Below are positions 14,420 through 40,846 of a DNA stretch of 64,000 bases, in pieces (the first letter of the stretch is position 1; the number at the start of each line of letters is the position of its first letter). Under the pieces are notes generated by a model. The model searched no databases and was not told the DNA's origin. It saw nothing but the letters and a program-made list of their open reading frames with translations. The position numbers and the translations under genes were made by a program. The stretch is from Lachnospiraceae bacterium (lineage in GTDB: Bacteria > Bacillota > Clostridia > Lachnospirales > Lachnospiraceae): contig JAQUVX010000019.1 of assembly GCA_028693165.1 (NCBI GenBank), positions 1 to 64,000 on the forward strand, in the 5' to 3' direction.

Positions 14420-15814
14420 ATGAGTTTAATACAGGAGATACCGGACCATTTCTGGGGCTTATTTCGCTCCTGCAACCGGGAGATTTATATGGAAGCACTG
14501 CGCTGTATCAATGAAGAATATGAATACAGCAACTATTACCTGAGCCGGGAAGTCTGCATTCAGACCTTGAACGCGTATTTTTCGCAGAAGAATGTCGGGC
14601 TTTTGTGGGACGAGTACGAGGGGGAGCTGGACGTGCTGGAACCGGTGGCGACCCGCATTCTCAACTGGCTGATCCGCACCGGATGGCTTCGGAAGGTGGA
14701 GGATTACAATTCCCTGACGACCAATATCGTGATCCCGGATTATGCGGCGGTGATGATCGAGGCCATGGACAAGCTGATGAGCGAGGAAGAGGACGAGACG
14801 CAGATCTATATTCAGAATGTCTACGCGATCCTGTTTTCATTAAAGCATGACCGCCGGGCCAATATGAGTCTGCTGAACACGGCGCTGGTCAACACGCGCA
14901 GGCTCAACAAGACGCTGCAGGACATGCTTCACAACATGGACAAATTTTTCGGGAGCCTGCTGGAGCAGCGGGTTTACGGGGAACTTCTGCGCGACCATCT
15001 GGAGGGGTACGTGGAGGAGGTCGTCCGAAAGAAATATCATATTTTGAAGACATCAGATAATTTTTATATGTACAAAGCGGACATCAAGCAGTGGCTGCGG
15101 CAGATGCGGGAGGACACCACGTGGATGGCGGGACTCTGCGGGCGCAGCCGGGGACGGTCGGGGACGGAGACGCAGCCGTCGGAGGCGGATGTCATCGAGA
15201 AACTGGATCTGATTGAGCGGGGCTTTGACGACATCGAGCACCGCATTGCCAACATGGACAAGGAGCATAGCAAGTATGTCCGCGCGACCGTGAGCCGGCT
15301 GAATTATCTTCTGAACGAGGACGATGATATGCGCGGCATGGTGATCCAGCTTTTGAATCAACTGGCGGCGGGCTCCGGGGAGAAGCAGGAGCGGATGATT
15401 CGGGCCATCGGCGGGCGGATGAATCTGTCTCAGGTGGACCTTCTTTCGGCAGAGTCCCTCTACAGGCGGCGGAAGCGAAAGGTGGATTTCCAGGAGGGGC
15501 TGGTGCCGGAAGAGGTGCAGGAGGAATTATCCAGGGAAGAGCTGTTGGATCTCAACAAGATCAAACGGCGCTACAGCCAGCAGCAGATCGAGACGTTTGT
15601 GTCGGAGCGGATGAAGAATGGTGTCATGGAAGTGACGGAGGATACGGTGCAGGAGAAAGAAGATTTTGAAAAACTGATTCTGGCCTATGATTATTCCATC
15701 CGCAGGCGAAGTCTGTTTGAGGCTGTGCAGTGCGGGGACGGCGAGGAGCCGGAGATGGTGGACAACGGCAGATTCCGTTATCCGAAACTGATGTTTATAA
15801 GGAGAGGAAAATGA
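14420..15814 (+). CDS. jetA: Wadjet JetA (DUF5716), kleisin-like subunit
   Basis: A 464-residue protein of the DUF5716/JetA family, the kleisin-like arm of the type II Wadjet SMC complex that recognises and removes plasmid DNA. The N-terminal region (ECxIQTLNAYF-like helices, LWDEYEGELDVLEPVATRIL, RTGWLRKVEDYNSL) reads as a winged-helix/kleisin head. The middle is helical and the end charged (RRKRKVDFQEGLVPEEVQEE). AAGGAGAAG precedes the ATG. It overlaps jetB by the ATGA at 15811-15814, indicating coupled translation. Assignment rests on family pattern and the jetBC context. Confidence 0.82.
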   Translation: MSLIQEIPDHFWGLFRSCNREIYMEALRCINEEYEYSNYYLSREVCIQTLNAYFSQKNVGLLWDEYEGELDVLEPVATRILNWLIRTGWLRKVEDYNSLTTNIVIPDYAAVMIEAMDKLMSEEEDETQIYIQNVYAILFSLKHDRRANMSLLNTALVNTRRLNKTLQDMLHNMDKFFGSLLEQRVYGELLRDHLEGYVEEVVRKKYHILKTSDNFYMYKADIKQWLRQMREDTTWMAGLCGRSRGRSGTETQPSEADVIEKLDLIERGFDDIEHRIANMDKEHSKYVRATVSRLNYLLNEDDDMRGMVIQLLNQLAAGSGEKQERMIRAIGGRMNLSQVDLLSAESLYRRRKRKVDFQEGLVPEEVQEELSREELLDLNKIKRRYSQQQIETFVSERMKNGVMEVTEDTVQEKEDFEKLILAYDYSIRRRSLFEAVQCGDGEEPEMVDNGRFRYPKLMFIRRGK

Positions 15815-16449
15815 TACCATATTACGAGGAGCTGATACCGGAGGAACAGGCGGAGCTGACGGGAATCATCCGTCTGCTCTACAGACAGACGTTCATTCTG
15901 GAGCGGAAATATGACAAAAAGACGGGGCGTTATCAGTATAATAAAGAATTTCGGCTGTGCAATCAGCACCTGGAATTTATCCGGGAATATTTGAAAATCG
16001 CAGGGATTGATGTGCGGGAAAACAGCCAGCTCGGCGTAATTTATATGCAGGGCGAGGGACAGGTGGGGGAGAAGCTGCCGCGGCTGGCGACGCTGTATCT
16101 GCTGGTTCTGAAGCTGATTTACGACGAGCAGATGGCGAGCGTGTCCAACAGTGTACATATCGTTACGTCTCTGAGTGAGATGCATGAGCGGCTGGGGAGC
16201 AATCTGGGACTTCTGCCGCGCAAACCGGCACCCACGGAGATTCGCCGGGCGCTGCGGCTACTTAAAAAATATCAGGTGATCGAGCCGCTGGATATGATGG
16301 AGGGAGCAGACTCACAGAGCCGGATGCTCATCTATCCGAGCATCAATGTAGTGCTGTTTGGCGAGGACGCGCGGAGACTTTTGAGCTCCTTTGCGGAGGA
16401 GGATTCTTTGGAGGAAGGAGGAACGACCGATGGCGAAGACACGCTTTGA
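15811..16449 (+). CDS. jetB: Wadjet JetB (DUF4194), KITE-like subunit
   Basis: A 212-residue DUF4194 protein, the small winged-helix (KITE, MksE-like) subunit that bridges JetA and the SMC heads. It begins MIPYYEELIPEEQAELTGII and contains LYRQTFILERKYDKKTGRY, LPRLATLYLLVLKLIYDEQ and ALRLLKKYQVIEPLDM. AAGGAGAGG is placed correctly before ATG 15811, the start within the ATGA overlap; an upstream in-frame ATG lies inside jetA. The last 20 bases overlap jetC. Confidence 0.85.
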   Translation: MIPYYEELIPEEQAELTGIIRLLYRQTFILERKYDKKTGRYQYNKEFRLCNQHLEFIREYLKIAGIDVRENSQLGVIYMQGEGQVGEKLPRLATLYLLVLKLIYDEQMASVSNSVHIVTSLSEMHERLGSNLGLLPRKPAPTEIRRALRLLKKYQVIEPLDMMEGADSQSRMLIYPSINVVLFGEDARRLLSSFAEEDSLEEGGTTDGEDTL

Positions 16450-19400
16450 GGCATTATCGAGAATTGCACTGAACAACTGGCATTACATCAACCATCGAAT
16501 TCTTTCCTTCAATGAGGGGATCAACTTTTTCACCGGGCACTCCGGGAGCGGCAAATCGACGGTGATCGACGCGATGCAGATCGTGCTTTATGCTAATACC
16601 GACGGCCGCGGATTTTTTAATAAGGCGGCGGCGGACGACTCAGACCGAAGCCTGATCGAATACCTGCGCGGCATGGTCAACATCGGGGACAATAATGAAT
16701 TTTCTTATCTGCGGAACCGCAATTTTTCCAGTACGATCGTGCTGGAGTTAAAGCAGACGGATACGGAGCGCTGTCAGTGTGTGGGCGTGGTGTTTGACGT
16801 GGAGACGGATACCAATGAGATCAGCCGTCTGTTTTTCTGGCATGAAGGGCCGATGTGGGAGAATGAATACCGCACCGATGGGCGCACCATGACTACGGAG
16901 GAGGTCAAGGATTATCTGCAGGGACATTATGGGAAGGAAGATTTTTACTGCGGTTCCCACAATGAGCGTTTCCGCAAACAGCTCTATGATATCTATCTGG
17001 GCGGCCTGGACGCAGAGAAATTCCCGCTGCTGTTCAAGCGGGCGATTCCCTTTCGGATGAACATCAAGCTGGAGGATTTTGTGAAGGAATATATCTGTAT
17101 GGAGCAGGATATTCACATCGAGGACATGCAGGAAAGCGTCATGCAGTACGGGCGGATGCAGAAGAAAATCGCGGATACCCAGGCGGAGATTCAGGCGCTT
17201 GAGGAGCTGCAGACGCGCTACGGCACCGTGACGGCGAAGCGGGAGGAGCAGGAGAAATGGAGCTGTTTTTGCAGGACGCTGGAGATTCGCAGGCAGGAGG
17301 CGGAGCTTGCGGAGCTGCGGGAGCGGATCGGCCAGGATGAGCAGGACTGTGAGCGGCAGAAAAGTCAGCTTGCCGTTCTGGATCAGAATATTGCAGAGCT
17401 GACAGCCCAGGCGGATGCGCTGCTCAAACAGGTGGCGGAGTCGGGATATGACAATCTGAAGAAAGAACTGGCGCTGATCAATGAGATGATTGAGCAGCTT
17501 GGGGTCAATAAGGCGCATTATCAGCGGACAGCGGAGCAGCTGCACGCCTGGACGGATCTGGATGTGACCTACAATTCCACAATCTGGGCAATCGAGTCCT
17601 TTGAGAAGGGAGAGATCACGGAGGGGGAGCTTGGCAAGCTGCAGCGGGAGCTGACGGAGATCCGCAAGGATGTGGCCGAACAGCAGCAGGATGCGAAGGA
17701 GAAGCTGCGTCAGCTCAAGAAGGAAGAGAAGCTGGCAAGCGAGGAATTAAACCGCTTAAAGCAGGGCGACCGTGCCTACCCGGACGAGGTGGAGCAGGCG
17801 AGAGCACATCTGCTGCGGCGTCTGGCCCAGGAGACCGGCAAGGCGGTTTCGGTGGAGGTGCTGGCGGATCTTCTGGAGATCCGAAACGAGCGCTGGCGCA
17901 ATGCGGTGGAAGGCTATCTGGGCGGCAGCAAGCTGTCTCTGATTGTGGAACCGCGCTATGCGAAGCTGGCGCTGGAGCTTTACCGGGAGCTGGACCCCAA
18001 ACAGTATTATGGCGTAGCGGTTTTGGACACGGAACGGATCGAGCAGGATGAGCACAGGGTGCTGGAGCACGCGTTGTCGGAGGAAGTCACGGCGAGCCGT
18101 TCCTACGTCCGGGCTTATATCGATTATCAGCTGGGAAAGGTTGTGAAGTGTGAGTCGGTGGAGGAGCTTCGCCGGTGCAGGATCGGTGTGACGGCGGACT
18201 GTGTGCTGTATCACAGCTATCGAATCCAGCACATGAACCCGGTCAGCTACACCCGGATGGCTTATATCGGGAAAAGCAGTATGAAGCAGCGCATGAAGCT
18301 GCTGAAAAAGCAGCTGGAGGAGATCGCAAAGAAGCGGGAACCGCAGGAATCGATGGAGAACGAGTGCACAGAAATCTTGAATCTGGAAGCACTGTCGCAG
18401 CGCCCGGAAATCTATCTTGGCTGGCTGGCCGATCAGAAGACCCTGAAGGGCAAGCTTCAGGAGAAGTCCCGCCTTGAGAAGAAGATCGAGGAGCTGCAGA
18501 GTCAGAATGTGGCGCAGTGGGAGGAAGAACGCAGCGCTGTACTTGCAGTCTGTGACGGCAAAAAGCAGGAACGCACGCTGGTGGAACATACTGTTTGGGA
18601 GATCGAAACCCGACTGGCACAGTACAAGGCTAATATATTAGACAAGCAGGAACTCTCGCTGAAGGCGCAGGATGCATTGAAATTGTGGAGTAAGGACCGC
18701 GAAGAGGCATGGCTTGTGGATTGTGATCAAAAGCTTCAGGACTGGACTCAGCAGGTCTCCAAGGGACATGTCCGCTATGGCCGGCTGACAGAACTGGCGG
18801 CAGCGGAAGCGGAGCATGCGGGGCACGAGGTACAGGCCGCGTGGAACGAACTGGTGGATGGCCGGACCGTATACTTGAGACAGTATGTGAACCGCACGAC
18901 CTTCTCGCCGACGGAAGCGGATAACGGCAAATACGAAGAGCTTCTGGAACGTCTTTCCTGTGATCGCCTGGACGAGTACCAGAAGATTGCGGCGGAGCAG
19001 GCGAAATCTGCGGTGGAGCATTTTAAGGATGACTTTATCTACAAGATCCGGACAGCGATCAAGGAAGCACTGGAGCGCAAGGACGAGCTAAACCGTGTGA
19101 TCAGCCGCCTGGATTTCGGAAAAGATAAGTACCGTTTCGTTATTGGGCGCAATAAGGGGGCGTTTGGTTCCTATTATGATATGTTCATGGATGAAGCGCT
19201 GGAGATCAACCCCTCGCAGCTGAATGATAATATGGACTATCAGCTGAATATGTTTTCCATGGAGCATGAGAACCGTTATGGGGAATTGATGAATGAGCTG
19301 ATCAGCGTGTTCATTCCGCCGGAGAATGCGACGCAGGAACAGATGGAGGAGGCGAAGCGGAATATGGACCGGTTCGCGGACTACCGGACGTATCTGTCCT

Positions 19401-19828
19401 TTGATATGGAGCAGTTGATCGAGAATGAAGAGGGCACCATGAAGATCGGCCTCAGCAAGATGATCCGCAAGAATTCCGGCGGTGAGGGGCAGAATCCGCT
19501 TTACGTGGCGCTGCTTGCCAGCTTTGCGCAGGCTTACCGCATCAATCTGACGCCGAAGCTGCAGCGCCGCCCGACCATCCGCCTGGTGGTATTGGATGAG
19601 GCATTTTCCAAGATGGATTCGGAGAAGGTGGCGAGCTGCATCGAGCTGATCCGCGGCCTCGGCTTCCAGGCACTGATCAGTGCGACCAATGACAAGATCC
19701 AGAACTATCTGGAGAATGTGGACAAGACCTTCGTATTTGCCAATCCAGGCAAGAAGGGGATCTCGATTCAGGAATTTGAGAAATCGGAGTTTGCGGAGCT
19801 GTCGGCGGAGGCGGAGGAATCGACGTAA
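16430..19828 (+). CDS. jetC: Wadjet JetC, SMC-like ATPase
   Basis: A 1132-residue SMC/MukB-like ATPase. Walker A is GHSGSGKST (residues 36-44). An ABC-signature-like NSGGEGQ lies near residue 1015 and Walker B (VVLDEAFSKMD) near 1055, so the two head halves are at the ends. Between them are long Glu/Lys/Gln-rich coiled coils (about 230-330, 400-480, 620-830 and 850-960) and a hinge region around 490-600. GAAGGAGGA precedes ATG 16430; the in-frame ATG at 16391 lacks this. A strong terminator follows at once and no jetD nuclease gene is present, so DNA cleavage by a resident nuclease is not accounted for here. Confidence 0.88.
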   Translation: MAKTRFEALSRIALNNWHYINHRILSFNEGINFFTGHSGSGKSTVIDAMQIVLYANTDGRGFFNKAAADDSDRSLIEYLRGMVNIGDNNEFSYLRNRNFSSTIVLELKQTDTERCQCVGVVFDVETDTNEISRLFFWHEGPMWENEYRTDGRTMTTEEVKDYLQGHYGKEDFYCGSHNERFRKQLYDIYLGGLDAEKFPLLFKRAIPFRMNIKLEDFVKEYICMEQDIHIEDMQESVMQYGRMQKKIADTQAEIQALEELQTRYGTVTAKREEQEKWSCFCRTLEIRRQEAELAELRERIGQDEQDCERQKSQLAVLDQNIAELTAQADALLKQVAESGYDNLKKELALINEMIEQLGVNKAHYQRTAEQLHAWTDLDVTYNSTIWAIESFEKGEITEGELGKLQRELTEIRKDVAEQQQDAKEKLRQLKKEEKLASEELNRLKQGDRAYPDEVEQARAHLLRRLAQETGKAVSVEVLADLLEIRNERWRNAVEGYLGGSKLSLIVEPRYAKLALELYRELDPKQYYGVAVLDTERIEQDEHRVLEHALSEEVTASRSYVRAYIDYQLGKVVKCESVEELRRCRIGVTADCVLYHSYRIQHMNPVSYTRMAYIGKSSMKQRMKLLKKQLEEIAKKREPQESMENECTEILNLEALSQRPEIYLGWLADQKTLKGKLQEKSRLEKKIEELQSQNVAQWEEERSAVLAVCDGKKQERTLVEHTVWEIETRLAQYKANILDKQELSLKAQDALKLWSKDREEAWLVDCDQKLQDWTQQVSKGHVRYGRLTELAAAEAEHAGHEVQAAWNELVDGRTVYLRQYVNRTTFSPTEADNGKYEELLERLSCDRLDEYQKIAAEQAKSAVEHFKDDFIYKIRTAIKEALERKDELNRVISRLDFGKDKYRFVIGRNKGAFGSYYDMFMDEALEINPSQLNDNMDYQLNMFSMEHENRYGELMNELISVFIPPENATQEQMEEAKRNMDRFADYRTYLSFDMEQLIENEEGTMKIGLSKMIRKNSGGEGQNPLYVALLASFAQAYRINLTPKLQRRPTIRLVVLDEAFSKMDSEKVASCIELIRGLGFQALISATNDKIQNYLENVDKTFVFANPGKKGISIQEFEKSEFAELSAEAEEST

Positions 19829-19905: not shown

Positions 19906-20553
19906 CTAAAACAGCAGCGAATAATATTCCTCAAAGGTCCTGCGCACATTCGCGATGTGCTGGCGGATGCACCGCTCGGCCTCGGCGCTGTCTCTGGTCT
20001 TGATGGCATGGTAGATGGCTGTATGCTCCTGGAAGGAGCGTTCGTCGCGGCCCGGAATCAGGATGGTCTTGCTGTTGTACTTGCGCATCTGGTTTTTCAG
20101 GCGGACGGTGACATCGACGGCGGTGCGGTTCGGGCAGTTGTCGTAGATGATGTTGTGGAACTTCTGGTTGCAGACAGAGTAGGAGAGCAGGTCTGATTTC
20201 GCGCGGCATTCGGACATCTGCTTCAACAGCTTCTCCAGCTGCTTTAAGCCTTCTGCCGGAAAGTCCGGCACAGCAAGACGGACGATAAAGCCCTCCAGTT
20301 CCTGACGAAGCTCCAGAAATTCCAGAACTTCGGTGCGGGAGTAGCTGCGCACCTTGGCGCCTTTGTTTTGTTCGATTGTCACATAAGAATCATTCTCAAG
20401 CATTAGCAATGCTTTCTTGATCGTATTCCTGCTGACGTTATATTCGCTTGCCAGGTCAATCTCAGGAAGACTTTCCGCAGGGGAGTAATAGCCCTGTTCG
20501 ATTCGTTCTTTCAAATTCTCATATACAATAGTGGTTTGATTTGCTTTAGCCAT
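19906..20553 (-). CDS. GntR-family (FadR/FCD) repressor of the TRAP operon
   Basis: A 215-residue regulator. The N-terminal winged helix (YENLKERIEQGYYSPAESLP ... DLASEYNVSRNTIKKALLML) is followed from about residue 75 by an all-helical FCD ligand domain. That domain carries the metal-ligand pattern of the family (CNQKFHNIIYDNCPNR and EHTAIYHAIKTRD, with H near AERCIRQHIANVRR). CGAGGA upstream favours ATG 20553 over the ATG at 20580. It is divergent from the operon starting at 20870. The matching 17-base repeats next to both promoters are its likely operators. The inducer is probably the transported carboxylate or an intermediate. Confidence 0.88.
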   Translation of the reverse strand: MAKANQTTIVYENLKERIEQGYYSPAESLPEIDLASEYNVSRNTIKKALLMLENDSYVTIEQNKGAKVRSYSRTEVLEFLELRQELEGFIVRLAVPDFPAEGLKQLEKLLKQMSECRAKSDLLSYSVCNQKFHNIIYDNCPNRTAVDVTVRLKNQMRKYNSKTILIPGRDERSFQEHTAIYHAIKTRDSAEAERCIRQHIANVRRTFEEYYSLLF

Positions 20554-20588
20554 AGGGCAGTTTCCTCGACATCCTTGCAATATTTAAA

Positions 20589-20642
20589 TGTTCAACATTC
20601 ATGATATACATTGAGTATACGTTCTCTTTATTTTACTGTCAA
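20589..20642 (-). promoter_or_regulatory. gntR promoter with operator
   Basis: On the minus strand: TTGACA (20637-20642), 17 bp, TATACT (20614-20619). Just downstream lies TGTTCAACATTCATGAT (20589-20605), nearly identical to the element beyond the divergent operon promoter. This placement suggests autorepression by the GntR protein. Confidence 0.65.
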
Positions 20643-20744
20643 GGAAAAATAGCGGTGAAATGCGGTGTTTTGCAGAAAATAAGACGTTTTGCACAAAAAA
20701 TGAATTGAAAATTAGGCAAATCAGCACAAAATTCATATAGGTAA

Positions 20745-20812
20745 TTGACAAATGCAATTGAGGATGCTAGAATCAAAAACATAACAAAACAAAATTGTTC
20801 AACAATCATGAT
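20745..20812 (+). promoter_or_regulatory. Promoter and operator of the DUF6282-galB-TRAP operon
   Basis: TTGACA (20745-20750), 17 bp, TAGAAT (20768-20773). TGTTCAACAATCATGAT (20796-20812) follows about 15 bases after the expected start; it contains the palindrome TTGTTCAACAA and matches the gntR-side element in 16 of 17 bases. The spacing fits repression by roadblock. The rest of the 20554-20869 intergenic region shows no gene. Confidence 0.65.
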
Positions 20813-20869
20813 GAAAAGATGGTGGAACAATAGAAAAAACAAGAAGCGATTCTGAGGAGGAAAACCAGT

Positions 20870-21778
20870 ATGATGGATTACAGAGAATTGATTCGCGGCG
20901 GATATGATCTTCATGTTCATTCTGCGCCGGACGTATTGCCAAGAAAGATGGATGATATCGAGATGGCACAGAGGATTTCGGCCAGCGGCATGAGCGGTTA
21001 CGCGATTAAGAGTCATTATTTTTGCACTTCCGAGCGGGCAGAGCTGATCAACAAACTTTATCCGGAGTGTGATGCAGTCGGAACGATCACATTGAACAGC
21101 TCCGTAGGCGGAATCAACCCGACGGCCATGGAGATGGCGGCAAGAAGCGGCGCAAAGCTGGTATGGTTTCCGACCTGCGATTCCGCACATGAGATCGCAC
21201 ACGTATTCAACGGAGATCCGAACAAGAAGCTTCCATATTGGGCACAGATTATCATTCAGATGAAGGAGGCCGGGATTCAGGCTCCGACGATCACCATTTT
21301 AGATGAGGACGGGAAACTGAAGGCACCGGTGTACGAGGTGCTGGACATTATTGCAAAATACGACATCATCCTGACGACCGGACATATCTCTCATGAAGAG
21401 GCATTTGCGTTGGTGGCGGCGGCCAAAGAGCGGGGAGTGAAGAAGATCGTGATCACACATGTGGATTTCCCGACGACCTTCTACTCGATTGACGACCAGA
21501 AACGTCTCGTGGAGATGGGGGCAGTCATGGAACACTGCTACACCACCTGGGCGACTGGAAAAGTGGATTTTGAGGTGACGAAGGAACAGATTCGCGCCGT
21601 GGGCCCGGAGAACTGTATTCTGGCGACTGACTTAGGACAGAAGACAGCGCTTTACCCGGATGAGGGATTTCTGGAATTTGCAAGACGGCTGTATGACGAT
21701 GGTTTTACCGCAGACGAGATTCGCACGATGACCGTCAAAAATCCACGCAGATTATTGGGGAAAGAGGAGGACATCTAA
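20870..21778 (+). CDS. DUF6282 amidohydrolase-like protein
   Basis: A 302-residue protein of the DUF6282 family, related to metal-dependent TIM-barrel hydrolases. The N-terminal GGYDLHVHSAPDVLPRKMDD carries an HxH motif (His15, His17) for a metal. Later His-bearing segments are LTTGHISHEEAF, VITHVDFPTTFY and EHCYTTWATG, and an acidic LATDLGQKTA segment near residue 265 supplies the expected Asp. GAGGAGG precedes ATG 20870. It is the first gene of an operon with a GalB-like hydratase, a TAXI-TRAP importer and an RraA-type aldolase. A lactonase-like step such as 2-pyrone-4,6-dicarboxylate opening is possible, but the function is unproven. Confidence 0.75.
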   Translation: MMDYRELIRGGYDLHVHSAPDVLPRKMDDIEMAQRISASGMSGYAIKSHYFCTSERAELINKLYPECDAVGTITLNSSVGGINPTAMEMAARSGAKLVWFPTCDSAHEIAHVFNGDPNKKLPYWAQIIIQMKEAGIQAPTITILDEDGKLKAPVYEVLDIIAKYDIILTTGHISHEEAFALVAAAKERGVKKIVITHVDFPTTFYSIDDQKRLVEMGAVMEHCYTTWATGKVDFEVTKEQIRAVGPENCILATDLGQKTALYPDEGFLEFARRLYDDGFTADEIRTMTVKNPRRLLGKEEDI

Positions 21779-21780
21779 TT

Positions 21781-22521
21781 ATGATAAAAGGGAAAAAAAT
21801 GCTGGTAGTCAGCGCACACGCCGCCGACTATGTATGGCGCAGCGGTGGCACGATCGCAAAATATATTAAAAACGGAGCAGAGGTTCACGTCGTTGTGCTG
21901 AGCTTTGGTATCCGCGGAGAGAGCAACGATCTGTGGAAGGCGGAGGGGGCGACCGCAGAGAGTGTGAAAGCGATTCGCCTGGGAGAGACCAAAGAGGCAG
22001 CGAAGACGCTGGGAATCACAAACATTGAATTCTGGGATCTGCCGGATTACCCGATGGAGCCGGCGCTGAATGAGGAGGTTCGTGAGCGCCTGATCCGCAA
22101 GATCCGCGAGGTGCAGCCGGATATCATCCTGACGCACGACAAGAACGGAGAAGACATCCTAAACCCGGATCACAACGCAGTCAGCCGTTTCGTATTTGCC
22201 TGCAGTATTCAGAGTAATTCAAACGGAGTGCGGATCGAGGGGACCAGGACGACGAAGCAGATGCAGCTGTATGGATTTGAACCGCATCAGACGGAGTTGA
22301 GTCAGTTTGTTCCGGGAAGTCTGATTGACATTTCGGAAGTATATGATCAGAAGGTGGCGGCAATGAAGTGCTTTAAGGCACAGGGACATTTGATCGAGTA
22401 TTATACGGAGCGTGCGTTCTTGCGGGGCAATCATATCAGAAGAATTTCCGGCAATCAGACGTATCGATATGCGGAGAGTTTTTCCAATTTCTTCCCGGTA
22501 GCAGGAGAAGAATTATACTAA
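21781..22521 (+). CDS. galB: GalB-like 4-oxalomesaconate hydratase (PIG-L family)
   Basis: A 246-residue PIG-L (LmbE) fold protein. It does not carry the usual AHPDD of deacetylases. It has VVSAHAADYVWRSGGTIA, LSFGIRGESNDLWK, FWDLPDYPM, YGFEPHQTEL and IDISEVYDQKVAAMKCF, which closely follow the remembered sequence of Pseudomonas GalB, a PIG-L-fold hydratase adding water to 4-oxalomesaconate. Probable metal ligands are His13, Asp16 and His131. The product would be 4-carboxy-4-hydroxy-2-oxoadipate, which the RraA-type gene at 25544 could cleave. It starts two bases after the DUF6282 stop. A deacetylase role is less likely because the deacetylase motif is changed. Confidence 0.72.
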   Translation: MIKGKKMLVVSAHAADYVWRSGGTIAKYIKNGAEVHVVVLSFGIRGESNDLWKAEGATAESVKAIRLGETKEAAKTLGITNIEFWDLPDYPMEPALNEEVRERLIRKIREVQPDIILTHDKNGEDILNPDHNAVSRFVFACSIQSNSNGVRIEGTRTTKQMQLYGFEPHQTELSQFVPGSLIDISEVYDQKVAAMKCFKAQGHLIEYYTERAFLRGNHIRRISGNQTYRYAESFSNFFPVAGEELY

Positions 22522-22560
22522 TAACGATAGAAAGCCAAAGATGAGAAGGAGAAGGGTCTT

Positions 22561-23625
22561 ATGAAAAAGAAAATGATGGCGTTGGGATTGGCAATGGTAA
22601 TGACAACGGGCTGTCTGAGCGGATGCGGCGGGAGCAACAGCAGTACGGCAACAGAGGCGGCAAAGACAGAGGAAGCTAAGACGGAAGCAGCGGCGGGGGC
22701 AGCAGCGGAGGGAGCGGCTTCTGATGTGGATGCGTATACCGTAAGCGGAAATATGACGCTGGGTACGGCTTCTTCTACCGGAACCTTTTATTATGTAGGC
22801 GCGGCAATCGGAACCGCTGTTTCCAGCGCAGGTAAGCTGAATGTGCTGGTGCAGGCAACCAATGGTTCCAACGAGAACGTTGCCATGTGTCAGAGCGGTG
22901 ATATCGATATGGGCATGGGCAACAGCGATGCATTGTATGCTGCATACAATGGCGAGATGTCTTATAAAGAGGCGGGCAAGCAGGATATCCTGGAGGTTGC
23001 TTCTCTGTATGATTCTCAGCTTCACGTCTTTGTAAATGAGAAGAGCGGCATCAAAGATATTGCCGATTTAAAGGGCAAGAAGGTCTGCGTGGGTTCTCAG
23101 GGAACCAGTTACCTGTTCGTGAACCAGTCTCTTCTGGAAGCGTATGGTATTACTATGAATGACATTGAACCATTTTACATGAACTATGCGGAGGCGGCAC
23201 AGGCTCTGGCGGACGGTGATATCGATGCTGCGTTCCAGACCGGCGGTTATCCGATTGCAGGAATTCAGCAGTCTGCGGCAACCACCAGCTTCCGTATGCT
23301 TCCGCTGGATGATAAGATCATGGATACCATTATTGAGGGCTATCCATTCATTACCAAGACGACCATCCCGGCTGGAACTTATGAGAATCAGGCAAATGAA
23401 GATGCAGTTGCAACCTTCGGTTATCAGACCTGCCTGTTTGCTTCTTCTAAGGCAGACGCGGATCAGGTGTATGCATTCGTGAAGCTGATGATGGAGACAT
23501 TGGATTCTTATAAAGAAACAAACGACGCAACCCGCCAGATCTCTCCGGAGACCATTGCAACCGAGTATATTCCGTTCCACCCGGGCGCAGAAAAATACTA
23601 CAAAGAGGCAGGTCTTTTGAAATAA
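22561..23625 (+). CDS. TAXI-family TRAP transporter substrate-binding lipoprotein
   Basis: A 354-residue extracytoplasmic binding protein. The signal ends in a lipobox (LSGC at about residues 19-22) followed by a Ser/Thr/Ala/Glu-rich linker. The mature domain begins MTLGTASSTGTFYYVGAAIG, diagnostic of TAXI proteins, and continues with GDIDMGMGNSDALYAAYNG and LKGKKVCVGSQGTSYLFV. TRAP systems use ion gradients and mostly import carboxylates. It is 39 bases after galB and 26 bases before the fused permease, so substrate capture for the pathway in this operon is the natural reading. Confidence 0.93.
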   Translation: MKKKMMALGLAMVMTTGCLSGCGGSNSSTATEAAKTEEAKTEAAAGAAAEGAASDVDAYTVSGNMTLGTASSTGTFYYVGAAIGTAVSSAGKLNVLVQATNGSNENVAMCQSGDIDMGMGNSDALYAAYNGEMSYKEAGKQDILEVASLYDSQLHVFVNEKSGIKDIADLKGKKVCVGSQGTSYLFVNQSLLEAYGITMNDIEPFYMNYAEAAQALADGDIDAAFQTGGYPIAGIQQSAATTSFRMLPLDDKIMDTIIEGYPFITKTTIPAGTYENQANEDAVATFGYQTCLFASSKADADQVYAFVKLMMETLDSYKETNDATRQISPETIATEYIPFHPGAEKYYKEAGLLK

Positions 23626-23651
23626 GATCCCTGAAACAGGAGGAATGATTC

Positions 23652-25547
23652 GTGGAAAATAATAATAAAAGTTCTGCTTTGGATCGGATATTCACGGTAT
23701 TGGCACTGACTGTTTCTGTGGTGTTGTGTGTGTTCCATCTGCTGGCGGCATCTCCTATGCTGACGTTGAACAACACCGAGCAGGCAGTTATCCATGGTGC
23801 GATGGTGGTAACCTTTTTCCTGCTGGTCCGCCATCTGAAATTCAAAGGTGGTAAGTTCATCGATCTGGCCCTGATTGCAGTGACGATCATCGCAGCGTTT
23901 GAGGTTATTGCCATGCGAAATTCCAACTCTGCATCTGCGACATTGTACTCCGTGTTCCAGCAGAGAATCTCAATTGTTTTCGTGATTGTGGCACTGATCG
24001 TCGGCTATCGGGCACTCGGAAAGATTCTGCCGTCCCTGTGTGTGCTGTTTCTGGCATACACCTTGCTTGGAAGATATCTGCCGGGAACCTGGGCGACGGC
24101 GAAGGTTTCTCTGACCCGCATGAGCACGTATCTGATGGTAAGCAGCGAAGGTTTGTTTGGAAATGCGCTGAGCACCGCAGCAAACTTTATCTTCTTATTT
24201 GTAATATTTGGTTCAGTTTTGAGCTTTATCGGGGCAGGCGAATTCTTCGTTAAGATCGCGTTTGCTGCGTTTGGCAAGATCTGCGGTGGCCCGGCTCAGG
24301 CTGCAGTTTACTCCAGTATGCTGATGGGCATGGTCAATGGTTCCGGTGCGGCAAATGTAGTGACGACCGGTACGTTCACGATTCCGCTGATGAAACAGAC
24401 CGGATTTGATTCCGATACGGCGGGCGCGATCGAGGCGGTTGCCTCCAACGGTGGCCAGATTATGCCGCCGGTTATGGGTGCGGTTGCATTCCTGATGGCA
24501 GATGCTACCAGCCTTCCGTATACGGTGATCTGTCTTGCAGCATTGCTGCCGGCAATCCTGTATTACATAACGCTGTCAACTTCGATTGTTGCATATTCTC
24601 ACAGAAATAAAATTCCGGTTAAAGCACCGGATCCCAATGCAGAGACCGTTTGGCAGATCTTTAAATCCGGCTGGTTCTACTTCCTGCCGATCTTCCTACT
24701 GATTGCGCTGATGGTCAAAGGATTCAGCACACAGCGGGCCGCATTGATTACGATTATTCTCTGCGCGATCATCGGGCTTTTGACAGACCGCAAAAAGTTT
24801 ACAGCAAAGAATCTGCTTGATTTGTGCGAGCAGTCGGCGAAATCCATCATGACGGTATCCATTGCCTGCATGATCGCCGGTATCATCGTAGGAAGTATCA
24901 ACATTACCGGATTTGGACTCAAGATCAGCGGACTGATCACGGCAGCATCCGGCGGAAGGATCATTATTATGGGTGTCCTGACGGCGATTGTATGTATTAT
25001 CCTTGGCATGGGTCTTCCGACCTCCGCATGCTACATTGTGCTGGCAGTTTTAGTTGCTCCGGCCATGATTGAGCTGGGAATAGCAACGATTTCTGCACAC
25101 ATGTTCGTCCTGTATTATGGTGTGGTTGCTGCAATTACGCCCCCGGTGGCGCTGGCGGTGTTTGCCGCCATTGGAATATCTCATGGTGATATGTGGAAGA
25201 CGGGCCTGCAGGCGATGAAGATGGCAGCTTCCGGATTTGTTATTCCATTCATTTTCTTATATAACACGGATCTTTTGATGTTCAATCCGATCACGAACAG
25301 CTTTGGCTTCTCTGCTAACGTGGTGGTCAGCTTTATTACGGCAATGCTTGGTTGTATGATCATGGCTCTGGGGTTGTTTGGATGGTTCTTCCGCGATTTT
25401 AAATTGTGGGAACGGATTCTGCTTCTGGTATGTGCGGTGTGTCTGATGCTGAATGAACCGTTTGTTTTAAATGTGGTTGGACTGGCTGTGGCGGTTGTGG
25501 TGCTGATTCGTGCCAAGGCTACAGCGAAGAAGGAGGTATTGATATGA
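23652..25547 (+). CDS. TRAP transporter permease, fused 4TM-12TM (DctQM type)
   Basis: A 631-residue fused small/large TRAP membrane subunit. The first 170 residues give about four membrane helices (DctQ part). The rest is the DctM part, with MVNGSGAANVVTTGTFTIPL, EAVASNGGQIMPPVMGAVAF and GMGLPTSACYIVLAVLVAP typical of TAXI-TRAP permeases. The start is GTG 23652, placed after AGGAGG. The stop overlaps the next gene in ATGA, so permease and aldolase are translationally coupled. A fused subunit is the usual form for TAXI systems. Confidence 0.93.
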   Translation: MENNNKSSALDRIFTVLALTVSVVLCVFHLLAASPMLTLNNTEQAVIHGAMVVTFFLLVRHLKFKGGKFIDLALIAVTIIAAFEVIAMRNSNSASATLYSVFQQRISIVFVIVALIVGYRALGKILPSLCVLFLAYTLLGRYLPGTWATAKVSLTRMSTYLMVSSEGLFGNALSTAANFIFLFVIFGSVLSFIGAGEFFVKIAFAAFGKICGGPAQAAVYSSMLMGMVNGSGAANVVTTGTFTIPLMKQTGFDSDTAGAIEAVASNGGQIMPPVMGAVAFLMADATSLPYTVICLAALLPAILYYITLSTSIVAYSHRNKIPVKAPDPNAETVWQIFKSGWFYFLPIFLLIALMVKGFSTQRAALITIILCAIIGLLTDRKKFTAKNLLDLCEQSAKSIMTVSIACMIAGIIVGSINITGFGLKISGLITAASGGRIIIMGVLTAIVCIILGMGLPTSACYIVLAVLVAPAMIELGIATISAHMFVLYYGVVAAITPPVALAVFAAIGISHGDMWKTGLQAMKMAASGFVIPFIFLYNTDLLMFNPITNSFGFSANVVVSFITAMLGCMIMALGLFGWFFRDFKLWERILLLVCAVCLMLNEPFVLNVVGLAVAVVVLIRAKATAKKEVLI

Positions 25548-26245
25548 TAAACCCATGTGCACCGCTTTTGCCGGACGAAATTATTGCAAGAGCGGAAAAG
25601 TTAAATGTGCCGCTGCTGCTTGATGGTTTGAAGGCGGCAAAGATTGATATTCCAAATGGGGGCTGCATGGATGCGTCTGTCATGCCGGTCGAGCGCAGGA
25701 TGCAGGTGGTCGGGACGGCGATGACGGTGGAGTCCTGCGACGGCGATAATTTTCCGATTCACGTGGCAAGCTACAGCGTGAAGGAGGACGGCTATGTGAT
25801 GGTGATCGACGGAAAAGGTTACATGGGCCGCGCTTATTTTGGAGATCTGATCATGGGGGCCTGTCAGGCGGCCGGATTTAAGGGAATGGTCATCGATGGC
25901 TGCACCCGTGACCGCGACGGCAATATCGAGTTGGATTTCCCTGTATACAGCAAAGGCTTCATGCCGAGAGGGCCGATCAAGAAGGATGAGGGCAATATTA
26001 ATACGCCAATCCTGTGTGCTGGCGTGAAAGTGGAGCCGGGAGATCTGGTCGTCGGAGATTCGGATGGCGTGTGCGTGATTCCGAAGGAGTATATTGAGAC
26101 GGTTTTGGCGGAAGCTGAGAAGAAACAGATTTATGAGGAAAAGCGGGTCGAGACCATTGCTGCTTATAAAAAGGCAAAGGCCGAGGGCAGCGAGCTTCCA
26201 CAGCTTGCACCGCAGTGGGTTCTTGACATGCTGGAAGAACGTTGA
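25544..26245 (+). CDS. RraA-family protein, probable 4-carboxy-4-hydroxy-2-oxoadipate/HMG aldolase
   Basis: A 233-residue RraA-fold protein. The family signature is GDLIMGACQAAGFKGMVIDG followed by CTRDRDG, with the Gly-x20-Arg-Asp pattern of class II pyruvate aldolases of the HMG/CHA group. The C-terminal helical end (ELPQLAPQWVLDMLEER) is also seen in aldolase-type members. Such enzymes split 4-carboxy-4-hydroxy-2-oxoadipate into pyruvate and oxaloacetate. It overlaps the TRAP permease by four bases and ends the operon before a terminator. Coexistence with the GalB-like gene supports the aldolase reading over a ribonuclease-inhibitor RraA, which lacks such neighbours. Confidence 0.78.
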   Translation: MINPCAPLLPDEIIARAEKLNVPLLLDGLKAAKIDIPNGGCMDASVMPVERRMQVVGTAMTVESCDGDNFPIHVASYSVKEDGYVMVIDGKGYMGRAYFGDLIMGACQAAGFKGMVIDGCTRDRDGNIELDFPVYSKGFMPRGPIKKDEGNINTPILCAGVKVEPGDLVVGDSDGVCVIPKEYIETVLAEAEKKQIYEEKRVETIAAYKKAKAEGSELPQLAPQWVLDMLEER

Positions 26246-30304: not shown

Positions 30305-30389
30305 AAATACATCGAGGTTGTTAAAAAAACATCAAACAAGCTCAACAAGAAAACTCAAAAACATAACATGGATAAGAGGAGGAAACGCA

Positions 30390-31577
30390 ATGAGCAAATT
30401 ATCTCAGGAACAGTTCCAGGCTTACTTGATGCAGATTCGTGAGCTGGCAGAGGGACCGCTGGAGGAAATCCAGAAAGAGGTAGAGGTTACCAACAAATTC
30501 CCGCAGGAGTTTTACGATCTTGCAATCAAAAATGATTTATACAGATGTGCACTTCCGGAGCAGTACGGCGGATATGGTCTGAGCGAGTTAGAGATTTTAC
30601 AGGTACAGGAGGAGTTCTCCAGAGGACCGGGCGGAATGAGAATGCATCTGCATTATGCAATGGATCTGAACTGGAGAATCCTTGATGATTACGGCAATGC
30701 AGAGCTGAAAGCAGAGTGGATGCCGAAATTCCAGGATAAATCCGTATTTACCTGCTTTGCACTGACCGAGATCACCGGAGGAACCGGCGCTGACTTACAT
30801 ACAACCGCTGTTAGAGACGGCGATTCTTATGTATTGAATGGTGAGAAGACCTTGATTTCCCACACCGACTGCTGCGAATTTGCATATGTAATCGCAGTGA
30901 CCGATCCGGATGCTGCTGACAAGAACAAGAGACTGTCTGCATTCTTCGTACCGATGGATGCTCCGGGATTTGAAGTAATCAACATGCCTCATATGATGGG
31001 CTGCCGCGGTGCTGGCCATGGTGATCTGAAATTCACCGACTGCCGCATCGACAAGAAATATCTGTTAGGCGAAGAGGGACAGGGTCTTGAGATTGCACTG
31101 CACTCCTTATCCGTATCCCGTGCACATATCGCAGCTTCCAACCTGGGTATGGCTCAGAGAATGTTAGAGCTGTCCCTGACCTACGCTGAAGAGCGTGTAA
31201 CCTTCGGCAAGCCGATCGGAACCCGTCAGGCCATCAAGATGAAAATCGCTGATATGTCCATGATGGTACACGCACTGCGCTGCATGGTTTATGATTTCGC
31301 GAAAGATTACGAAGAGAACCCGACCGGTGAGTACATCGAGGAGAAGGCTGCTATGTGTAAGCTGTACAGCATCGATACCACCAGAAGAGTCAGCGATGAG
31401 ATGCTGGAGATCTTCGGCGGCGTTGGCTACTTCGAGGACTGCAAGTACGGCCCGACCGAGCGTCTGTATCGTGACTGCCGCGCAATGTGGTTAGAGGAAG
31501 GTGCTCCGACCGTTCAGAGAATCACCATCGCAAGAAACACTGTAAAACATAACGGACAGATCAAATACGTTCTGTAA
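30390..31577 (+). CDS. Acyl-CoA dehydrogenase family flavoenzyme (first of two)
   Basis: A 395-residue FAD enzyme of the acyl-CoA dehydrogenase fold, acting on the alpha-beta bond of a CoA thioester with ETF as redox partner. The FAD-binding region FTCFALTEITGGTGADLHT and the C-terminal EIFGGVGYFEDCKYGPTERL are typical. The catalytic Glu is probably Glu370 in WLEEGAPTVQR, in the position of the YEG motif of short-chain enzymes. GAGGAGG precedes ATG 30390; an in-frame TTG at 30318 does not have it. It shares the general pattern of CaiA-like reductases. It is separated from the rest of the cluster by a terminator, so it may be expressed more strongly. Confidence 0.9.
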   Translation: MSKLSQEQFQAYLMQIRELAEGPLEEIQKEVEVTNKFPQEFYDLAIKNDLYRCALPEQYGGYGLSELEILQVQEEFSRGPGGMRMHLHYAMDLNWRILDDYGNAELKAEWMPKFQDKSVFTCFALTEITGGTGADLHTTAVRDGDSYVLNGEKTLISHTDCCEFAYVIAVTDPDAADKNKRLSAFFVPMDAPGFEVINMPHMMGCRGAGHGDLKFTDCRIDKKYLLGEEGQGLEIALHSLSVSRAHIAASNLGMAQRMLELSLTYAEERVTFGKPIGTRQAIKMKIADMSMMVHALRCMVYDFAKDYEENPTGEYIEEKAAMCKLYSIDTTRRVSDEMLEIFGGVGYFEDCKYGPTERLYRDCRAMWLEEGAPTVQRITIARNTVKHNGQIKYVL

Positions 31578-31610
31578 TCAAACAGACAGAATCGGATAAA
31601 CAGAAATGAC

Positions 31611-31655
31611 AAAGGCTGTCGCATGAAGGATCTCCTTTGTGTGACAGCCTTTTTG
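31611..31655 (+). terminator. Terminator inside the acyl-CoA cluster
   Basis: AAAGGCTGTC (31611-31620) pairs with GACAGCCTTT (31643-31652) and ends in a T run. It lies between the first dehydrogenase and the CoA transferase gene and would split the cluster or attenuate the downstream part. Confidence 0.8.
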
Positions 31656-31720
31656 TCTCAAAAACAGCTGAAAACAGCTCAAAACGGCTGAAAAACAGGA
31701 ATCAGAAGGGATCTGTAAGC

Positions 31721-32947
31721 ATGAAACCATTAGAAGGTGTGAAAATAGTTGATCTGACCACATACCTTGCGGCACCGACGACCGTCCGCGTGCTGGGGGA
31801 GTGGGGAGCCGATTGTATCAAGATTGAATCGGCAAAAGGCGATCCGGCCAGAACCCAGGGTGCGGTATTCAATATGCCTTATACGGATGACGAAAATCTG
31901 GCATTTGATGTAGCCAACATGAATAAGCGTTTTATTACTCTGAATCTGAAATCAGAGAAGGGACTTGAGATTGCATATAAGCTGCTCTCCGAGGCAGATG
32001 TATTTGTAACGAACACCAGAACGAAATCGCTGGTAAAGCTTGGACTTGATTATGAGACTCTGAAGGAGAAATTCCCGAAGCTGATCTTCGCGCAGGTACT
32101 CGGCTATGGTGAGTTCGGACCGGAGAAAGACAGCGCCGGATTCGACGTGACCTGCTACATGGCAAGAGGCGGTGTATTTGGAACCACGGTGAATAAGGGC
32201 GATGCCCCGATGATCCCGACCAATGGATTCGGTGATTTCCAGGTTTCCATGAGCCTTGCTTCCGGCATCTGTGCCGCGTTGTATCAGAGAGAGAAGACCG
32301 GTAAGGGCGACAAAGTGACCGTCGGTCTGCATCATGCAGCGGTATTTGCACTGAGCACCGGCGTCATTTCCGCGCAGTACGGCAACCAGTATCCAAAGAG
32401 CCGTCTGGAAGTGGTCAATCCGTTCAACAACGTATATCGTTCCAAGGATCAGAAATGGGTTGTGATCTGCTGTCCGGAATATGACAGAGATTATGAGAAG
32501 ATCTTCACATTGTTAGGAAGAGACGACATGGTCGGCAATCCAAAATATATGAAATGCGATGACATCAATGCAAATGGACTGAACCATGAAGTAGTCGGCG
32601 CACTGGATGAGGCATTCGCGCAGCTGACCAGAGACGAGATCATGAGCATGTTCAAGGGCGCTGATCTTGCATGTGAAGCGGCTTATGAGCCGGTTGATAT
32701 GTATACCGATGAGCAGGTATGGGCAAATGACATTATTCGGAAGATTCCATATCCGTCAGGCGAGAGATGTATGCCGACCAACCCGGTCAGCTTCAACAAT
32801 ATGGGCAGACCGGAATTCGCCATCGGCGGTTCTCAGGGCGCGCAGACGGTAGAGATCATGAAGCATCTGGGCTATGGCGATGCCGAGATCGAAGAGGCAC
32901 TTGCCTCCGGAGCAGCTGAGGCTGAGAAAAAGCTGAAGAAACTGTAG
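31721..32947 (+). CDS. CaiB/BaiF-type (family III) CoA transferase
   Basis: A 408-residue family III CoA transferase that moves CoA between carboxylates. The N-terminus MKPLEGVKIVDLTTYLAAPT and WGADCIKIESAKGDPARTQG are characteristic. The catalytic Asp lies in EFGPEKDSAGFDVTCYMARGG. GAAGGGAT precedes ATG 31721. A CoA ligase in the same cluster (36019) could prime the first CoA ester, while this enzyme recycles CoA from product to new substrate, as in the CaiB/CaiC pair of carnitine reduction. The substrate is unknown. A 10-base tandem repeat (AAAACAGCTG-like) lies just upstream. Confidence 0.9.
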   Translation: MKPLEGVKIVDLTTYLAAPTTVRVLGEWGADCIKIESAKGDPARTQGAVFNMPYTDDENLAFDVANMNKRFITLNLKSEKGLEIAYKLLSEADVFVTNTRTKSLVKLGLDYETLKEKFPKLIFAQVLGYGEFGPEKDSAGFDVTCYMARGGVFGTTVNKGDAPMIPTNGFGDFQVSMSLASGICAALYQREKTGKGDKVTVGLHHAAVFALSTGVISAQYGNQYPKSRLEVVNPFNNVYRSKDQKWVVICCPEYDRDYEKIFTLLGRDDMVGNPKYMKCDDINANGLNHEVVGALDEAFAQLTRDEIMSMFKGADLACEAAYEPVDMYTDEQVWANDIIRKIPYPSGERCMPTNPVSFNNMGRPEFAIGGSQGAQTVEIMKHLGYGDAEIEEALASGAAEAEKKLKKL

Positions 32948-32977
32948 GAAAGAATAAATATAAGGAAGGTGAAACAC

Positions 32978-34120: not shown

Positions 34121-34146
34121 ACAATCATAAACGAGGAGGAAGAAAC

Positions 34147-34935
34147 ATGAATATCGTTGTTTGTATAAAACAGGTTCCGGATACCACCGAGATCAAGATC
34201 GATCCGGTTAAGAACACGCTGATTCGTACCGGTGTACCGAGTATCATGAATCCATTTGATAAGAATGCATTAGAGACTGCTCTTCAGCTCAAGGATCAGT
34301 ACGGCGGCAAGGTCACCGCGCTGTGTATGGGACTGCCGCAGGCAAAGGCGGTTCTGCGGGAAGCACTTTCCATGGGCGCAGACGAGGCCTATCTGGCGAC
34401 AGACCGCGCATTCGGCGGCTCTGACACCTACGCAACCAGCTACATTCTGTCAAAAGCAATCGAGAAATTAGGGCCGTTCGACGTGATTCTAGGCGGCAAA
34501 CAGGCCATCGATGGAGATACCGGTCAGACCGCTCCGTCTATCGCAGAGCATCTGGGAGCCACCCGTCTGACTTATGTGCTGGATCTGAAGATTGAGGGTG
34601 ACAAGGTCATCGCGAGACGTCAGGTTGAGGAAGGAATTGAAGTCGTTGAGACTAGGTTCCCGATTCTGTGCACCGCAACCAAGGAGAGCAACAAGCCGAG
34701 ATATGCGACCGTCAAGAGAAAAATTGCATCCTTAAAAGCAGAGATTCCGGAAATTCATCTGGCGGACCTGATCGATGCGGATACCACCAAGATGGGTCTG
34801 AAGGGATCACCGACCAAGGTAAAAGCAACCTTCACACCTCAGAGAACTGCAAACGGTGTAACCATCGAAGGCAACAGCCCGATCGAGGTTGCAGACAATC
34901 TGATCGGCAAGCTGGTTGACGCAAAGGTACTTTAA
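34147..34935 (+). CDS. etfB: Electron transfer flavoprotein beta subunit
   Basis: A 262-residue EtfB/FixA-type protein beginning MNIVVCIKQVPDTTEIKIDP, with ALQLKDQYGGKVTALCMG, the nucleotide-binding region DVILGGKQAIDGDTGQTAPS and the recognition-loop-like TATKESNKPRYATVKRKI. With EtfA it carries electrons to or from the acyl-CoA dehydrogenases, and in anaerobes it may bifurcate electrons from NADH. AGGAGG precedes the ATG. It lies between the second dehydrogenase and etfA, spaced by 26 and 18 bases, in one operon. Confidence 0.95.
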   Translation: MNIVVCIKQVPDTTEIKIDPVKNTLIRTGVPSIMNPFDKNALETALQLKDQYGGKVTALCMGLPQAKAVLREALSMGADEAYLATDRAFGGSDTYATSYILSKAIEKLGPFDVILGGKQAIDGDTGQTAPSIAEHLGATRLTYVLDLKIEGDKVIARRQVEEGIEVVETRFPILCTATKESNKPRYATVKRKIASLKAEIPEIHLADLIDADTTKMGLKGSPTKVKATFTPQRTANGVTIEGNSPIEVADNLIGKLVDAKVL

Positions 34936-34953
34936 AAAAGGAGGTTTTTGGAA

Positions 34954-35964: not shown

Positions 35965-36018
35965 TCTGGAAACAGGAATCAGGAAGCGCGGCTTTCGGGA
36001 GTTTGAGGGAGATGGGTT

Positions 36019-38213: not shown

Positions 38214-38257
38214 CAGGCAATCGTGTTTTACAAGGTAAAAGGATTTTTGGATTCGAA

Positions 38258-38277: not shown

Positions 38278-38310
38278 ATGATATCAATAAAACTCAGGAG
38301 GGTTATCGTT

Positions 38311-39609: not shown

Positions 39610-39633
39610 GTGGATCACAGGAGAATATTATTT

Positions 39634-40839: not shown

Positions 40840-40846
40840 GAAAGAC

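Follow-up and report, generated by a model that had tools for sequence, protein, structure and literature searches.

A candidate operon for the uptake and fermentation of 2-pyrone-4,6-dicarboxylate in a Lachnospiraceae bacterium

We analyzed a 64,000-nucleotide stretch of DNA (hereafter the window; positions 1 to 64,000 of the forward strand of contig JAQUVX010000019.1, assembly GCA_028693165.1) from a Lachnospiraceae bacterium of the class Clostridia, and focused on an operon encoding a DUF6282 protein, a relative of the hydratase GalB, a TAXI-type TRAP transporter and an RraA-family protein (Table 1). The five plus-strand genes, from DUF6282 to RraA, are tightly packed, with spacings of -4 to 39 bases according to the list of open reading frames. 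Family assignments of these genes and of the divergent regulator gene by Pfam and NCBIfam are firm, and the solute-binding protein and the fused permease both score above the cut-offs of TIGR02122 and TIGR02123, which places them in the TAXI-TRAP transporter class. An initial annotation, made from the sequence alone, had described one operon with these components at 20553-26245. The open reading frames and their families are as it described them, and so are the place and the end of the operon; the coding part, however, begins at 20870 and not at 20553.

Table 1. Genes and candidate regulatory site of the operon, in window coordinates.
Feature	Position	Strand	Basis or remark
GntR/FCD-family regulator	19906..20580	-	divergent from operon; Pfam GntR and FCD
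Candidate operator, palindrome ATTGTTCAACAAT	20794..20806	.	predicted from sequence pattern
DUF6282 amidohydrolase-fold protein, proposed lactone hydrolase acting on 2-pyrone-4,6-dicarboxylate (PDC)	20870..21778	+	PF19799, 238 bits (cut-off 26.8)
GalB-like 4-carboxy-2-hydroxymuconate / 4-oxalomesaconate hydratase	21781..22521	+	PIG-L, 103 bits (cut-off 28.2); PDB 5cgz
TAXI-type TRAP solute-binding protein (lipoprotein)	22561..23625	+	TIGR02122, 267 bits (cut-off 84)
Fused TRAP membrane subunit	23652..25547	+	TIGR02123, 561 bits (cut-off 321)
RraA-family, HMG/CHA-aldolase-like protein, proposed last step	25544..26245	+	RraA-like, 127 bits (cut-off 24.5); PDB 3noj

The five-gene arrangement is conserved and not fortuitous, because the same order behind a divergent GntR gene recurs at loci L008-L012, of which L008 belongs to a cultured Hungatella strain, as a search for the gene set, already suggested in the initial annotation, revealed. 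Loci L013 and L014 run into contig ends and L015 has a different gene order. A chance neighborhood was set aside, given that the gene set is kept in many loci. With the window's own genome included, 2 of 145 relatives carry GalB at E <= 1e-25, and 4 of the phylum's 398 genomes do so at E <= 1e-40. The GalB operon is a sporadic accessory module.

Among PIG-L proteins of solved structure, the closest to the GalB-like protein, both by sequence and by fold, is GalB of Pseudomonas putida (PDB 5cgz). This is its best PDB sequence match (E = 1.9e-44, 155 bits; the next match has E = 6e-11 and 45.5 bits), and a model built from 25 sequences, with a predicted local distance difference test score (pLDDT) of 94.9, superimposes on 5cgz with template modeling (TM) scores of 0.92/0.94 and a root-mean-square deviation of 1.5 Å. 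The next structures are deacetylases, with TM scores of at most 0.79 by query length. Structure prediction, proposed from the outset as a check, thus returned the GalB fold. The motif AHAADYVW, initially read as a departure from AHPDD, is indeed present but is no oddity: it is the signature of GalB itself, which has AHSADFVW in 5cgz. H13, D16, H131 and A15 are invariant in the 25 sequences. We take H13, D16 and H131 to be metal-ligand positions, as in deacetylases, where the first Asp of AHPDD is the general base; going by these roles, the metal-ligand positions are kept and the deacetylase base is absent. The PIG-L family consists mostly of deacetylases, and the BshB, MshB and Mca models do match the GalB-like protein, below their cut-offs, as would be expected if the operon had an unrelated function, with an N-deacetylase, a non-enzymatic RraA protein and uptake of an amino-sugar or other compound. 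We consider such a function very improbable given the better structural match to GalB than to any deacetylase, the Ala that replaces the first Asp of AHPDD as in GalB, the intact aldolase residues of the RraA protein and the near-constant pairing of GalB with RraA, both described below. The N-deacetylase reading was set aside on the grounds that fold and motif are those of GalB.

The RraA protein has as its best PDB sequence match (E = 1.7e-28) an aldolase acting on 4-hydroxy-4-methyl-2-oxoglutarate (HMG) and 4-carboxy-4-hydroxy-2-oxoadipate (CHA), PDB 3noj. D102 has an active-site role in HMG/CHA aldolase. Roles of H75, R123, D124, K147, R195 and E199 are described in passages of PMC5065237, which also report that the enzyme takes HMG as well as CHA; the printed 3noj chain carries these six residues at the same numbers. 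Six of the seven positions checked (H75, D102, R123, D124, K147 and E199) are kept in the window protein, as H73, D101, R122, D123, K146 and E198. It probably works like a CHA aldolase, although the curated models cannot file it as one.

For the DUF6282 protein, a model built from 20 sequences (pLDDT 95.1) predicts a barrel of the amidohydrolase superfamily, of which LigI, whose role DUF6282 was initially suggested to play, is a member. The model holds the HxH, His, His and Asp pattern of such barrels: H15, H17, H172, H197 and D254, together with K47, H49 and E221, are invariant in the 20 sequences and are also kept in DUF6282 proteins unlinked to GalB. Two further residues, K231 and W124, are invariant in 24 GalB-adjacent DUF6282 proteins and hardly occur in the 15 unlinked ones examined. 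A tree was built from 40 rows, 38 of them different (L135 and L136 were filtered out and the gene of genome G497 is present twice, as L129 and L152); in it, the 24 GalB-adjacent sequences, from Bacillota, Spirochaetota, Thermomicrobiota and Thermoplasmatota, lie on one side of a single branch and the window protein groups with them; this branch is weakly supported (89/26; 94% of 200 bootstrap trees). The G497 gene was labeled unlinked, its GalB being about 6 kb away, and if it were counted as linked the groups would not be cleanly split. It belongs to a same-strand run of DUF1932, DUF6282, a tripartite tricarboxylate (TTT) transporter, RraA and GalB (L152). The top rows of a Foldseek search with the DUF6282 model comprised phosphotriesterase-like proteins, lactonases, deacetylases, dipeptidases and dihydroorotases, with the LigI-related protein 4mup at rank 34; this identifies the superfamily but does not single out a reaction. 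A PDB sequence search returned repeat and designed proteins only, and a literature search found no paper with the word DUF6282.

A second DUF6282 gene lies elsewhere in the window's genome (G000, contig C26, 189319-189900; L002 and L007), where its neighbors are a CitMHS-type transporter and a protein of the beta-lactamase family, with no GalB. This copy suggests another role for DUF6282 proteins.

To place the operon among its relatives, we scanned one genome per species for 84,980 species and analyzed as loci the best 80 of at least 573 confirmed GalB relatives. These loci were picked by GalB peptide patterns, so that motif counts are circular and neighbor counts are not; neighbors were called by phmmer against single representatives, and only 60 of the 80 loci extend 3 kb or more from GalB in both directions, hence absences are not proven. 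RraA was present in 77 of the 80 loci, in 65 within 1.2 kb of GalB, and two of the three loci without it (L013 and L014) end at contig ends. Genes of gallate and protocatechuate 4,5-cleavage surround many GalB relatives: PrpF was found in 45 loci, LigI in 20, LigB in 12, LigC in 9 and a type I extradiol enzyme in 23. LigI and/or PrpF occurred in 46 loci (both in 19), DUF6282 in 20 and neither in 14. DUF6282 was found together with LigI in none of the 80 loci and with PrpF in none, and it lies 0-73 bases from GalB in each of its 20. Lineage accounts for much of this split, as DUF6282 is found mostly in Bacillota and PrpF or LigI mostly in records titled proteobacteria; Spirochaetes records show both states. 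As a hint of PDC hydrolysis, the position of DUF6282 beside GalB and RraA is suggestive only. Real TAXI genes were present in 13 of the 20 DUF6282 loci and in 8 of the 20 LigI loci, leaving out those of L046 and L055 (36 and 48 bits, respectively), which are probably not TAXIs; none of the 13 loci with DUF6282 and TAXI has a LigB or extradiol gene within the stretches examined.

An extradiol enzyme was also observed within the GalB-RraA stretch of L025, L026, L027, L029 and L046 and in 17 of the 46 LigI/PrpF loci, often with a DUF1932 dehydrogenase. The L025 enzyme scores above the catechol 2,3-dioxygenase cut-off. Such loci may feed the lower 4,5-cleavage pathway by a route not yet described.

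A cluster in Sphaerochaeta connects the DUF6282 operons to LigI. It was found in two near-identical copies, L060 and L079, counted here as one observation, with the gene order TAXI, TRAP, LigI, GalB, GntR, PrpF and RraA. No LigB or extradiol gene occurs in the stretches examined and DUF6282 was found in neither genome. Its LigI matches PDB LigI 4d8l at E = 1.1e-82, its PrpF exceeds the 4-oxalomesaconate tautomerase cut-off (469.8 vs 440) and the L079 aldolase is over both CHA-aldolase cut-offs. The TAXIs of L075 (a Spirochaetes record), L150 (genome G500) and L151 (genome G591; both from the window's phylum) are 55-59% identical to the Sphaerochaeta TAXI, while the best of 26 background TAXIs reaches about 35%, and each of the three stands beside DUF6282, GalB and RraA. 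Orthologous TAXIs are thus present in the LigI cluster of Sphaerochaeta and in three DUF6282-GalB-RraA clusters. Similarly, the GntR of the window and that of the Sphaerochaeta cluster share 55% identity (245 bits); other GntR matches in 61 related genomes do not exceed 93 bits, bar one of 154 bits and 42%.

The residues of the TAXI proteins bear on the nature of the ligand. Passages of PMC11574862 describe how VcGluP of Vibrio cholerae holds the glutamate amine with residues that include Q93 and E125. The window TAXI has N and S in the corresponding columns. Among 13 DUF6282-linked TAXIs, N is found in 12 and S in 13, and among 8 LigI-linked TAXIs, N in 7 and S in 2 (L in 5 and A in 1); 26 background TAXIs have Q in 18 and E in 17. 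The set does not contain L014 (cut) and L024 (removed by a length/score filter), and five alphaproteobacterial sequences in it align poorly. N and S at the glutamate-contact columns speak against an amino-acid ligand, and a glutamate-type ligand was set aside at the level of residues, the key contacts being different.

The region between the divergent genes harbors a candidate site for the regulator. Promoter regions of 14 GalB loci were compared, and 13 of them (all but L024) contain the pattern ATTGTT-N-AACAAT with at most 2 mismatches, against 5, 5, 7 and 6 in four shuffles; the regions were hand-picked and partly related and the shuffles were mononucleotide. In the 3.6-Mb genome ATTGTTCAACAAT occurs exactly only at 20794-20806, with nine further places at 1 mismatch, and AACAAAATTGTTC is common to this site and that of Sphaerochaeta. 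We consider the operator likely for Clostridia and weak for Sphaerochaeta. GntR probably senses a pathway metabolite and probably represses the operon at ATTGTTCAACAAT until that metabolite appears.

The host appears to live without oxygen. Neither COX1 nor cytochrome bd gave a match in the window's genome (94% complete). LigB (PF02900), the type of ring-cleavage dioxygenase that marks aerobic gallate and protocatechuate 4,5-cleavage, likewise gave no match there (the genome-wide search did not extend to type I extradiol enzymes, LigI and PrpF), in agreement with the initial remark that no dioxygenase is present. These three absences are as expected of an anaerobe without LigB-type ring cleavage, and aerobic LigB ring cleavage in this host was set aside because of them. 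According to passages of PMC9415522, PDC is a chemotaxonomic marker of Rosoideae, reported at 0.1-2%, amounts to 1-1.7% of dry matter in strawberry leaf and is known from many Rosaceae genera, including strawberry, rose and raspberry relatives. Passages of PMC11794788 describe two peaks of a lady's mantle extract, assigned as PDC isomers, that were absent after 24 h of anaerobic incubation with feces from three of three donors. Among the papers listed by literature searches, judged by title and the start of the abstract, none dealt with an anaerobic PDC pathway, which is no proof of absence.

From these comparisons we infer the substrate, the reaction of DUF6282, the activities of the other enzymes, the effector of the regulator and the physiological role of the operon. 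We lean, modestly, toward PDC uptake and fermentation with the GalB-adjacent DUF6282 as a non-orthologous PDC lactonase. The pyrone would be supplied ready-made by plants or aerobic lignin degraders, so that no ring-cleaving dioxygenase would be needed. TAXI-TRAP would import PDC or a very close relative, and DUF6282, as a new kind of ring-opening enzyme, would open the ring at the first step; the GalB-like hydratase would act after ring opening and the RraA aldolase-like protein would perform the last step. The PDB title of 5cgz, '4-carboxy-2-hydroxymuconate hydratase', names the enol that PDC opening could yield directly, and this may explain why no tautomerase (PrpF/GalD) is needed: the GalB substrate would already be that enol. 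Overall, the operon looks like the lower half of a route familiar mainly from aerobic bacteria, used here for fermentation. Import of a ready-made compound, with DUF6282 in the role of LigI as initially suggested, is supported on comparative grounds. In the Sphaerochaeta cluster, a transporter of this class and a regulator of this type accompany a true LigI and tautomerase; orthologous TAXIs are found beside both LigI and DUF6282; in none of the 80 loci does DUF6282 coincide with LigI or PrpF; and the window's genome gave no LigB match. A wider proposal would make the GalB-adjacent DUF6282 clade a new, non-orthologous lactonase for PDC. In it, anaerobes from gut, rumen and sediment, belonging to several phyla, would ferment this pseudo-aromatic plant metabolite in the absence of oxygen; the lower part of the aerobic lignin/gallate pathway would serve them as an independent anaerobic module that has its own importer, of TAXI or TTT type, and a GntR regulon common to these bacteria. 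We hold this proposal at just short of an even chance.

Several observations weigh against this interpretation, and a first group concerns DUF6282. Its predicted barrel agrees with a LigI role, but LigI itself is not among the 50 Foldseek rows shown, the TM scores in those rows are modest (0.44-0.62 by query length) and other amidohydrolases rank first. The protein falls outside the Amidohydro_2/LigI sequence family: Pfam gives PF19799 only and the PDB sequence search no LigI. DUF6282 also exists away from GalB, as in the second copy of the window's genome, and the G497 protein, whose gene is some 6 kb away from GalB, falls among the unlinked proteins in the tree. Two clusters of rumen Clostridia, L018 and L019, share the regulator type and an operator-like site with the window and combine GntR, GalB and a window-type RraA with a different importer, a TctA-type TTT transporter; their genomes, whose completeness is not established, gave no DUF6282. 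Finally, a larger cluster in genome G003 of the same genus (L006) has TAXI-TRAP, two GalB-like proteins, RraA, an Amidohydro_2 protein and DUF6282. These L018/L019 and G003 clusters may act on related but different acids. The same lower pathway could instead be fed with an open-chain tricarboxylate (4-oxalomesaconate, its enol, or CHA), with DUF6282 performing another step, for example tautomerization in place of PrpF/GalD. Such a scheme would fit the L018 and L019 clusters and the finding that none of the 20 DUF6282 loci has PrpF. It strikes us as unlikely, since the metal-site pattern of DUF6282 and its lactonase and phosphotriesterase-like fold matches suggest a hydrolase and since DUF6282 is also absent from all 20 LigI loci; moreover, oxalomesaconate is not known to be abundant as a free compound.

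A second group concerns the transporter and the aldolase. The window TAXI is 30% identical to that of Sphaerochaeta and ranks 24 of 43, behind many unlinked TAXIs, so that the transporter link runs via L075, L150 and L151 only; the TAXIs closest to it belong to other DUF6282 clusters, with identities from 84% down to 37%. The DUF6282 proteins of the linking clusters are more distant, that of L075 being 46% identical to the window's. As for the HMG/CHA-aldolase features noted at the start, the six active-site residues stand, but R195 of 3noj is K194 in the window protein, which also stays under both curated CHA-aldolase cut-offs (142 vs 179 for NF006731 and 133.5 vs 304.5 for TIGR02798). Among seven other RraA proteins of GalB loci, those of L079 and L033 pass both cut-offs, those of L024, L027 and L075 pass NF006731 only and those of L016 and L018 pass neither. 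This divergent grouping of the window RraA with that of L018, the distance of its TAXI from the LigI-linked ones and the acceptance of HMG by HMG/CHA aldolase (in passages of PMC5065237) would all suit a parallel pathway for another hydroxy- or oxo-acid or lactone, such as 4-methylene- or 4-hydroxy-4-methyl-2-oxoglutarate or another pyrone, with the same chemistry of lactone opening, hydration and retro-aldol cleavage. We rate a parallel pathway as rather improbable: an identical inducer and ligand are suggested by the GntR shared with the Sphaerochaeta LigI cluster and by the TAXIs that this cluster has in common with DUF6282 clusters other than the window's, and the GalB fold and aldolase residues are kept. 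The remaining points touch single links of the PDC reading. In NCBIfam, the Sphaerochaeta LigI matches 4-sulfomuconolactone hydrolase alone, and far under the cut-off. The operator pattern is common by chance at 2 mismatches (5 in the 64-kb window vs 3.2 expected), and the Sphaerochaeta site is a 2-mismatch match only. The peaks in PMC11794788 are assigned to PDC only tentatively, PDC was one of many constituents that were lost, and the outcome of the control without feces is not in the passages. It is because of the distant window TAXI and the G497 DUF6282 that our confidence was lowered slightly, to the modest lean given above for the operon and to slightly below even for the proposal spanning several phyla.

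The operon is flanked by genes of other kinds. Strong PADLOC matches to Wadjet JetA, JetB and JetC (14420-19828) end beside the GntR gene without JetD, and PF09983 (JetD_C) gave no match in the 94% complete genome; this Wadjet either lacks the nuclease subunit or has a diverged or replaced one. On the other side, a RhuM-family protein at 28351-29370 matches the PADLOC candidate defense family PDC-S05. A gene set at 30318-41786 includes a CoA-transferase III and an AMP-binding ligase and, by eye, two acyl-CoA dehydrogenases, EtfBA-like proteins, membrane proteins and a LysR regulator; we take it to resemble carnitine/crotonobetaine metabolism.

If PDC fermentation by this operon holds true, a function could be assigned to a clade of an unnamed protein family, and the ligands of TAXI-TRAP transporters would include a new class. 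The disappearance of a dietary compound from fecal cultures would have a possible explanation, and the lower 4,5-cleavage pathway would no longer be strictly aerobic metabolism. In addition, for work with PDC as a polymer precursor, the operon would supply candidates for an importer, a lactonase and a regulator usable in biosensors.

The operon can be compared with several known systems. GalB of P. putida KT2440 (5cgz) shares with the window protein 39% identity in the structural alignment, the AHxAD(F/Y)VW motif, the fold and an RraA-family aldolase in the same cluster; the window differs in its added importer and in having no dioxygenase (for LigB, none in the genome), and the activity of its protein is predicted. 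HMG/CHA aldolase (3noj) has six of its seven checked active-site residues in the window RraA, which differs by a Lys for R195, scores below the cut-offs and membership of a divergent group. LigI (4d8l) has the same type of barrel as that predicted for DUF6282, which sits beside GalB and RraA where other loci have LigI, yet DUF6282 is a separate sequence family (PF19799, not Amidohydro_2). VcGluP and TtGluBP (1us4) belong to the same TAXI family as the window protein, in which the Q93 and E125 contact positions of VcGluP hold N and S. Finally, the Sphaerochaeta cluster has in common with the window the TAXI-TRAP class, the GntR type (55%), GalB, RraA and the lack of a dioxygenase in the stretches examined; it has LigI and PrpF in place of DUF6282, a canonical aldolase and a TAXI that is 30% identical.

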